From Micromussa lordhowensis (Eukaryota; Cnidaria; Anthozoa; Scleractinia; Lobophylliidae): a DNA stretch of 64,000 nt. Position 1 is the stretch's first letter; each line of letters opens with the position of its first letter. The position numbers and the translations under genes are program-made. This document shows, piece by piece, positions 425-63,484 of this stretch. The notes beneath the pieces were generated by a model. The model saw only the letters and a program-made list of their open reading frames with translations. It did not search any database and was not told the DNA's origin. The stretch spans positions 30,850,022 through 30,914,021 of the forward strand of contig OZ026596.1 in assembly GCA_964020085.1 (NCBI GenBank), written 5' to 3'.

Positions 425-487
425 TCGGTTTTCCTGGACGGAATGGTACTCCACCTGGAACGACTGGTCGACCAGGTGTGACTGGAC
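425..487 (-). CDS. Exon 69: Gly/Pro-rich linker
   Basis: 21 codons that begin GPVTPGRPVVPGG and end in RPGKP. Acceptor is TTTGCAG and donor is GTAAGC, phase 1-1. Gly recurs near Pro in a way that resembles collagen, but there is no strict Gly-X-Y register. Last exon of the gene visible here; the frame stays open. Confidence 0.75.

Positions 488-63484: not shown

Follow-up and report, generated by a model that had tools for sequence, protein, structure and literature searches.

Does a 64,000-nucleotide stretch of the stony coral Micromussa lordhowensis (GenBank assembly GCA_964020085.1, 581 Mb; contig OZ026596.1, here C2:30850022-30914021; hereafter the window) carry part of one giant gene, and what kind of protein would that gene encode? 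An earlier note, made from the letters alone, had proposed a chain of 69 exons in one frame, at least 7,501 residues long, with 21 LamG and 14 VWA modules. We rebuilt the model independently with a Viterbi decoder that scored splice sites together with coding potential and took its training set from the window's long open frames; hand curation followed. The resulting chain runs on the minus strand, its N-terminal side at high coordinates, and its 69 exons between window positions 425 and 63484 join into 22,503 bp, or 7,500 amino acids, with no stop codon. All 69 have AG and GT borders, and the longest intron spans 2,978 bp. Thirty-seven are module exons, comprising 21 single-exon LamG modules and 14 VWA modules (12 single-exon, two split by a phase-2 intron). 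Every one passes the curated Pfam cut-off (PF13385 for 21/21 LamG exons, PF00092 for 16/16 VWA exons), so that both the exon chain and the module count of the note hold. The remaining 32 exons are short Pro-rich linkers (39% Pro and 18% Thr overall).

The linkers speak to whether such a chain could arise by chance. One P/T-rich, stop-free exon in phase 1-1 is present in 26 of the 38 gaps in the window, whereas the same rule yields none in phase 0 and two in phase 2, both of them the same exons misread in another frame. The exon chain is therefore not a chance product. Its weak point is the set of six linkers, out of 32, that the mechanical rule did not pick up and that we selected manually. 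Except for the split VWAs, exons throughout the window belong to class 1-1, the classic shuffling class, and, read from the N-terminal side, the modules run LLVLVLVLVLVLLVLVLLVLVVLLVLLLVLLVLVL. AlphaFold models were made of two modules, LamG module 33 and VWA module 34, and reached a mean predicted local distance difference test score of 95.3 and 95.4, respectively; in these models, the fold is retained despite the charge described below.

The note had called the protein open at both ends. This is true of the window and probably not of the gene, since likely start and stop exons lie outside it, in flanking stretches that prolong the chain on both sides. Moving outward on the upstream side, we found two LamGs, the first of them partly unreadable, then a linker and a VWA; next comes an exon of 180 residues (net -11) whose T/P-rich stretch gives way to an acidic one, followed by a two-exon WSC module and an ATG exon (C2:30928103-30927971). 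The ATG exon resembles a signal peptide, with a hydrophobic core, a VSA end and a phase-1 donor, and the phases of the upstream exons are compatible. The signal-peptide rule with cleavage, which is untrained, matches three other places on the coding strand and two on the control strand. Downstream of the window lie 43 exons, among them 10 VWAs (four split by a phase-0 intron), eight LamGs, three WSCs and 17 linkers. The last exon (acceptor score 8.3) encodes 41 codons, 23 of them Arg and six Lys, and stops at C2:30812763; read by eye, this tail does not look like the heptads of a C-terminal coiled coil such as matrilins have. The whole model covers 115 kb and about 60 modules (25 VWA, 31 LamG and 4 WSC), with at least 12,398 residues, a mass of 1.41 MDa and an isoelectric point of 11.8, and all junctions of the exons used are AG/GT.

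Outside the window, exons were hand-picked from the Viterbi list and from module matches, the phase control being confined to the window. One outer VWA acceptor was set by hand, one WSC acceptor is weak (0.2) and several sites in the N-terminal part score only 3.0-5.0. The WSC assignments are weaker than those of LamG and VWA: of three tested against Pfam, one lay above the cut-off and two below, and tblastn against a Pocillopora WSC gave E-values of 5e-16 to 2e-24 for all four. Within the roughly 12,400 residues, which include 159 cysteines, neither an EGF-like cysteine pattern nor a membrane-like segment beyond the signal peptide was found, and Gly-X-X runs reach nine residues at most. Module exons scanned with Pfam gave neither an EGF nor a chitin-binding match, and tblastn found no fibronectin type II (FN2) module. 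All five residues of the VWA metal ion-dependent adhesion site (MIDAS) are kept in 17 of the 25 VWAs (7/14 in the window, 10/10 in the C-terminal part, 0/1 in the N-terminal part).

Could the chain instead be several adjacent genes of the same family, transcribed separately, that look continuous as nearly all exons are of class 1-1? Two signal-peptide-like exons on the coding strand of the window, at 28326-28242 and 7707-7599, would fit this idea. The wider scan with the cleavage rule again calls the first, and adds a far-upstream candidate and one that falls within a LamG exon. The genome's other, paralogous arrays differ in size from this one, and 47 AATAAA motifs on the coding strand make poly(A) sites possible. 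On the other hand, plus-strand controls give one such exon in the window scan and two in the wider scan, both window candidates are ordinary linkers extended into the pyrimidine tract of their acceptor, and cleavage of the one at 7707 would fall at about residue 12, below the length that the wider scan accepts. AATAAA is more frequent on the opposite strand (77), and most gaps are bridged by linkers, with no window intron above the maximum given above. We consider separate genes unlikely, though worth keeping in view; the exon structure strongly suggests a single gene across 115 kb.

An unusual property of this predicted protein is its charge. Arginine makes up 14.9% of the whole model, which carries a net charge of +1,974 by residue count, distributed as +36 in the N-terminal part, +1,132 in the window (14.2% Arg, 5.0% Lys, 2.9% Asp and 1.2% Glu) and +806 in the C-terminal part. 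All 35 window modules are positive, at +15 to +42 each, as are all 58 modules scored in the whole model. Module charge climbs toward the C-terminus (Spearman 0.66, p 1e-8, n=58, the p-value being optimistic as the modules are related), and linker composition shifts from Pro-Thr, taken over the whole window, to Pro-Arg in the C-terminal part (40% Pro, 26% Arg). A base-composition effect was rejected as the source of the arginine: all six Arg codons are used, AGA most often, in 4-kb blocks of 37.5-45.2% GC.

Relatives show the same bias. Single-exon protein searches returned 384 matches for LamG and 180 for VWA, of which the best 120 of each were listed (target lengths about 98-369). Among the matches listed, all 120 LamG relatives carry +10 to +21 per 100 residues, and 111 of the 118 usable VWA relatives exceed +8 per 100, the other seven being near neutral; P0233 and P0236, with matched stretches under 120 residues, were left out of the charge and sequon counts. 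The five lowest-charge VWA sisters, 47-51% identical to module 34, range from -3.8 to -0.5 per 100, coral polycystin-like LamG domains from -3.5 to -1.0, the collagen VI VWAs listed from about -8 to +5, and the listed VWA domains of other named proteins from -10.9 to +10.3, most of them near zero or negative. Because near-neutral sister VWAs, polycystin-type LamGs, collagen VI and most other named VWAs lack it, the positive charge is, on these sequence comparisons, a property of this family and not of the LamG or VWA fold. Most listed matches are unnamed; where a charged relative has a species label, the species is a stony coral (Oculina patagonica for P0137, Pocillopora meandrina for P0243). 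At least 12 assemblies are apparently common to both lists, as judged by eye, which suggests that the LamG and VWA types are co-located in other assemblies too.

A second property is the near absence of N-glycosylation sequons (N-x-S/T). The window holds one, against about 34.4 expected (1,000 shuffles, minimum 16) and 31 occurrences of the mirror motif. The C-terminal part also holds one, against 18.8 expected, making two in 11,673 residues, and the near-neutral head has six in 319. Among the matches listed, charged LamG relatives have one sequon against 139 expected (120 domains) and charged VWA relatives one against 91 (111 domains), counts that overstate significance as the relatives are not independent; the window's own modules, with a mean identity of 49% for LamG and 43% for VWA, are the better test. 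Neutral VWA sisters have three against 7.7 expected in seven domains, all three in one domain, and other named VWAs 119 against 188 in 144 domains. In our reading, the loss probably reflects selection, acting in the secretory pathway, to keep the cationic part free of N-glycans, which would mean that the protein passes through the endoplasmic reticulum.

Taken together, these features point to one 115-kb gene whose secreted, polycationic product, with about 60 folded modules strung on short Pro-rich spacers, would serve as an extracellular scaffold that cross-links polyanions, a reading to which we give an even chance. The predicted layout is a signal-peptide-like start, a near-neutral, sequon-bearing head (WSC, then T/P-rich and acidic), 25 VWAs, 31 LamGs and three WSCs, and a basic tail. 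The giant chain would be secreted into an anionic matrix, where acid-rich matrix proteins or sulphated glycans could be cross-linked through multivalent charge. Intact VWA metal sites might clamp carboxylates in a metal-dependent manner, bare, unglycosylated surfaces might be required for tight packing, and MIDAS-dead VWAs may serve as spacers or charge carriers. Coral skeletons are reported to hold acid-rich proteins with isoelectric points of 3-4.5, and a carbonic anhydrase has been proposed to pair with such proteins through a positively charged surface (PMC8086859). That the giant partners the acid-rich coral proteins is a guess, as is the tissue.

Several observations weigh against this scaffold reading. 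A few VWA domains of named proteins also carry a fair positive charge, for example +10.3 per 100 in a pearl-oyster protein. A small neutral gene at C2:45.24 Mb is also sequon-poor (1 against 6.2 expected), and sequon loss therefore does not cleanly track charge. The parts of the coral skeletal, larval and matrisome literature searched mention no such protein. We rejected the explanation that trypsin shreds the giant beyond detection, since a predicted tryptic digest leaves about 550 distinct peptides of 7-35 residues, covering 64% of residues. Its absence from the literature searched is thus not due to trypsin and argues mildly against abundance in the skeleton.

A rival reading places the giant in cnidocysts, the stinging or adhesive capsules, as a structural or matrix component. 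Nematocysts are filled with poly-gamma-glutamate, with which a polycation might pair. Known capsule proteins, such as minicollagens and NOWA, are cysteine-rich and partly collagenous, whereas the giant has few cysteines for its length and no collagen-like run, as counted above. In Nematostella, the genes whose expression is specific to a cnidocyte type include VWA proteins (PMC12549020). We regard a capsule role as rather improbable on this balance. Less probable again is an ordinary VWA adhesion protein of the matrilin or collagen VI type, whose charge would have no special role. The VWA modules do resemble collagen VI alpha-3 and a coral 'matrilin-1-like' protein, but charge and sequon loss extend across the 120 LamG and 111 of 118 VWA relatives listed, while sister VWAs of about 50% identity are neutral. 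A role in defence, as a polycationic net or as a polyprotein whose basic modules are released by cutting to trap or kill microbes in mucus, is very improbable: the net charge of +1,974 and the Arg/Lys-rich tail would suit it, but furin-type RX[KR]R sites number 35 in the window chain against 28.8 in shuffles and none starts in a linker, where cutting would be needed, so that a furin-cut polyprotein was rejected.

Trees of the LamG and VWA modules reveal four copies of a LamG-VWA-LamG trimer (modules 4-5-6, 8-9-10, 15-16-17 and 18-19-20), and the VWA of each has lost its MIDAS. Trimers 15-17 and 18-20 are 96-97% identical (synonymous divergence, dS, about 0.10; ratio of non-synonymous to synonymous divergence, dN/dS, 0.13-0.19). 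They are linked by a recent tandem block duplication, window positions 27917-32786 against 30668-35702, at 84-94% DNA identity. Judged from the dN/dS of these recent pairs, the modules are under purifying selection.

Followed along the minus strand from its N-terminal side, the window opens on a P/T-rich linker at 63443-63484; this and the linkers below were placed by the phase 1-1 rule unless said to be hand-chosen. LamG modules 1 (62373-62999) and 2 (60197-60835) flank a linker at 61837-61863, and a further linker at 60039-60068 leads to VWA module 3 (58167-58733; MIDAS intact). After a linker at 57537-57566 comes the first trimer, composed of LamG module 4 (56199-56834), a linker (55568-55618), VWA module 5 (54706-55248; MIDAS lost) and LamG module 6 (53081-53752). 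VWA module 7 (50764-51333; MIDAS intact) sits between linkers at 51790-51828 and 50359-50376. The second trimer follows with LamG module 8 (49529-50164), a linker (49071-49127), VWA module 9 (47676-48224; MIDAS lost) and LamG module 10 (46401-47069). A linker at 46245-46274 precedes the split VWA module 11, whose first half (45723-45954, phase 1-2) and second half (44740-45068) together keep an intact MIDAS. Next are a linker (44253-44273), LamG module 12 (43007-43636), a linker (41317-41346) and LamG module 13 (40432-41067), then two linkers in succession, one hand-chosen (40237-40263) and one found by rule (39133-39162), and VWA module 14 (38007-38570; MIDAS intact). A gene end at this VWA was considered and rejected; a phase-1 donor exists just after 38007, though a weak one (3.4).

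Beyond a linker at 37670-37702, the third trimer holds LamG module 15 (34948-35589), a linker (34166-34219), VWA module 16 (33320-33862; MIDAS lost) and LamG module 17 (32118-32753). A linker at 31964-32008 joins it to its recent copy, the fourth trimer: LamG module 18 (30708-31349), a linker (30470-30523), VWA module 19 (29437-29979; MIDAS lost) and LamG module 20 (28398-29033). The linker at 28242-28295, start-like if read from 28326, precedes VWA module 21, split into 27497-27788 (phase 1-2) and 26320-26591, with MIDAS intact. VWA module 22 (24659-25192; MIDAS lost) lies between linkers at 25620-25643 and 24323-24382, and LamG modules 23 (22946-23548) and 24 (21514-22146) are joined by one at 22349-22378. 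A linker at 21089-21145 leads into VWA module 25 (20214-20765; MIDAS lost), which is followed by LamG modules 26 (19132-19764), 27 (18204-18845) and 28 (15469-16101), with linkers at 19010-19039 and 17075-17140 between them. VWA module 29 (14308-14847; MIDAS lost) has linkers on either side (15026-15052 and 13620-13697), and LamG modules 30 (12735-13349) and 31 (9719-10360) enclose a P/R-rich one at 11672-11752. The remaining linkers were all hand-chosen. They stand at 9108-9149, ahead of VWA module 32 (8319-8867; MIDAS intact); at 7599-7673, P/R-rich and start-like if read from 7707, ahead of LamG module 33 (6865-7500); at 6295-6348, ahead of VWA module 34 (5292-5840; MIDAS intact); at 2272-2313, ahead of LamG module 35 (1195-1830); and at 425-487, the last exon inside the window, after which a VWA exon follows outside.

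Apart from these exons, the long intron that precedes the module 35 linker contains a tandem repeat of about 311 bp (3299-4609; 4.1 copies, 98% matches). At 36904-37001 the triplet TAA is repeated perfectly for 32.7 copies. Beside this run on the minus strand, a 160-codon open frame (37186-37665) without a Pfam match reads like the end of a non-LTR reverse transcriptase.

The same genome carries related arrays, which differ in size from the giant. At C2:43676236-43706977, a paralogous LamG/VWA array is charged at +13.3 per 100 (8.2% Lys, 10.1% Arg) and has no sequon in the matched stretches against 10.6 expected. In the LamG tree, its LamGs pair with window modules 23 (99/95) and 24 (100/97), and more loosely with 26/01 (92/70) and 02 (80/66), while one of its VWAs matches module 22 best; the order largely agrees with the window, with one LamG in between unpaired. 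A second supercharged array on the minus strand at C14:4430051-4455226 combines VWA, WSC and FN2 modules at +10 to +24 per 100 (+18.8 overall), with one sequon against 7.8 expected, and its modules reach one edge of the stretch examined. Head-to-head with the giant, on the plus strand at C2:30945879-30960358, stands a near-neutral WSC-VWA-VWA-LamG series (+4.5 per 100 over matched stretches; four sequons against 3.9 expected). Pieces of a weakly charged VWA at C2:30935452-30933449, minus strand, upstream of the giant's start exon, belong to a separate gene or a remnant. At C7:27142046-27215687, minus strand, at least about 70 near-identical neutral VWA exons recur with a period of about 988 bp among the matches listed (10 sequons against 4.7 expected); these could be an artefact of assembly or a further giant gene, even more repetitive than this one.

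The LamGs encoded at C2:45.25 Mb and C2:30.96 Mb, both near-neutral genes, cluster with polycystin LamGs (98/89), and most charged LamGs stand apart from this neutral group. On the neutral side of the midpoint root are also module 24 with its partner (92/85) and one long C2:43.68 Mb row (86/52), in a tree with some rows of unlike composition and few starred deep branches. Since the near-neutral LamGs group with those of polycystins and most charged ones do not, a small neutral WSC-VWA-LamG gene is plausible, not proven, as the ancestor, and the head-to-head series is possibly its picture.

We tentatively extend this picture, at somewhat below even confidence, to stony corals with a supercharged matrix set built from VWA, LamG, WSC and FN2 modules. 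Its members would share Arg-rewritten surfaces, missing N-glycan sites, giant chains and a gradient from neutral head to poly-Arg tail, and would act as cationic partners of acid-rich proteins in a charge-paired scaffold. The coral matrix literature, in the parts searched, dwells on acidic proteins. If the model is true, a secreted folded-module protein of about 1.4 MDa, with a net charge near +2,000 and almost no sequons, would be an unusual case of natural supercharging, and sulphated mucus or acid-rich matrix proteins could be what it pairs with as a cation. Near-neutral sister modules of about 50% identity in the same genome, even next door, make the evolution and purpose of the charge directly testable.

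How does the giant compare with known systems? A third protein search, with a 4.5-kaa piece as query and restricted to targets of 2,482-7,896 residues, gave 46 matches, none a LamG-VWA giant and none with both domains in its Pfam list; its named neutral VWA matches come from fish, amphibians, molluscs and others. The parts of the literature searched contain no description of this architecture. The note's view of an undescribed architecture thus agrees with both searches. Its general picture of a giant modular matrix-type protein, anthozoan in origin, is well supported, although it lacked the strand, the full length, the WSC modules, the charge, the sequon loss, the MIDAS split and the division into charged and neutral relatives.

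Matrilins share VWAs with a metal site and differ by their EGF-like domains, and FACIT and type VI collagens differ by their Gly-X-Y triple helix. Mussel byssal PTMP1 and collagen VI alpha-3 are the best solved VWA matches by sequence and fold, PTMP1 being the nearest fold to the module 34 model (template modelling score 0.91-0.94, 28-33% identity); neither is known to have LamG arrays. A coral skeletal VWA matrix protein is similar in kind, but the description available gives it three VWAs with TSP-1 and F5/8C domains and no LamG array. Pif/BMSP-type shell matrix proteins unite VWA, chitin-binding and LamG domains. Of these, the giant has the VWA and LamG and, on the exons scanned, no chitin-binding Pfam match. 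The nearest named LamG domains (42-49% identity) belong to coral polycystin-1-like and related proteins (P0277, P0280 and P0281), which differ in having neutral LamGs alongside C-type lectin, PA14, PLAT or REJ and channel domains. The Oculina patagonica 'matrilin-1-like, partial' protein P0137 has an Arg-rich VWA (58% identity, +19.2 per 100) in a 309-residue fragment without LamG. The Pocillopora meandrina protein P0243 (2,695 residues; 17.4% Arg, +19 per 100; one sequon against 10.1 expected) carries six VWAs, 55-58% identical to module 34 and charged at +17.4 to +18.1 per 100, on Pro-Arg linkers; unlike the giant, it lacks LamG and continues with WSC and FN2 modules. The C14 array of this genome is similar to it. 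The giant shares the Arg-rich VWAs, Pro-Arg linkers and scarce sequons of these charged coral VWA/WSC/FN2 arrays. Hence, the predicted protein belongs to a known kind, the modular VWA/LamG matrix proteins, and its apparently new features are arginine supercharging and sequon loss.
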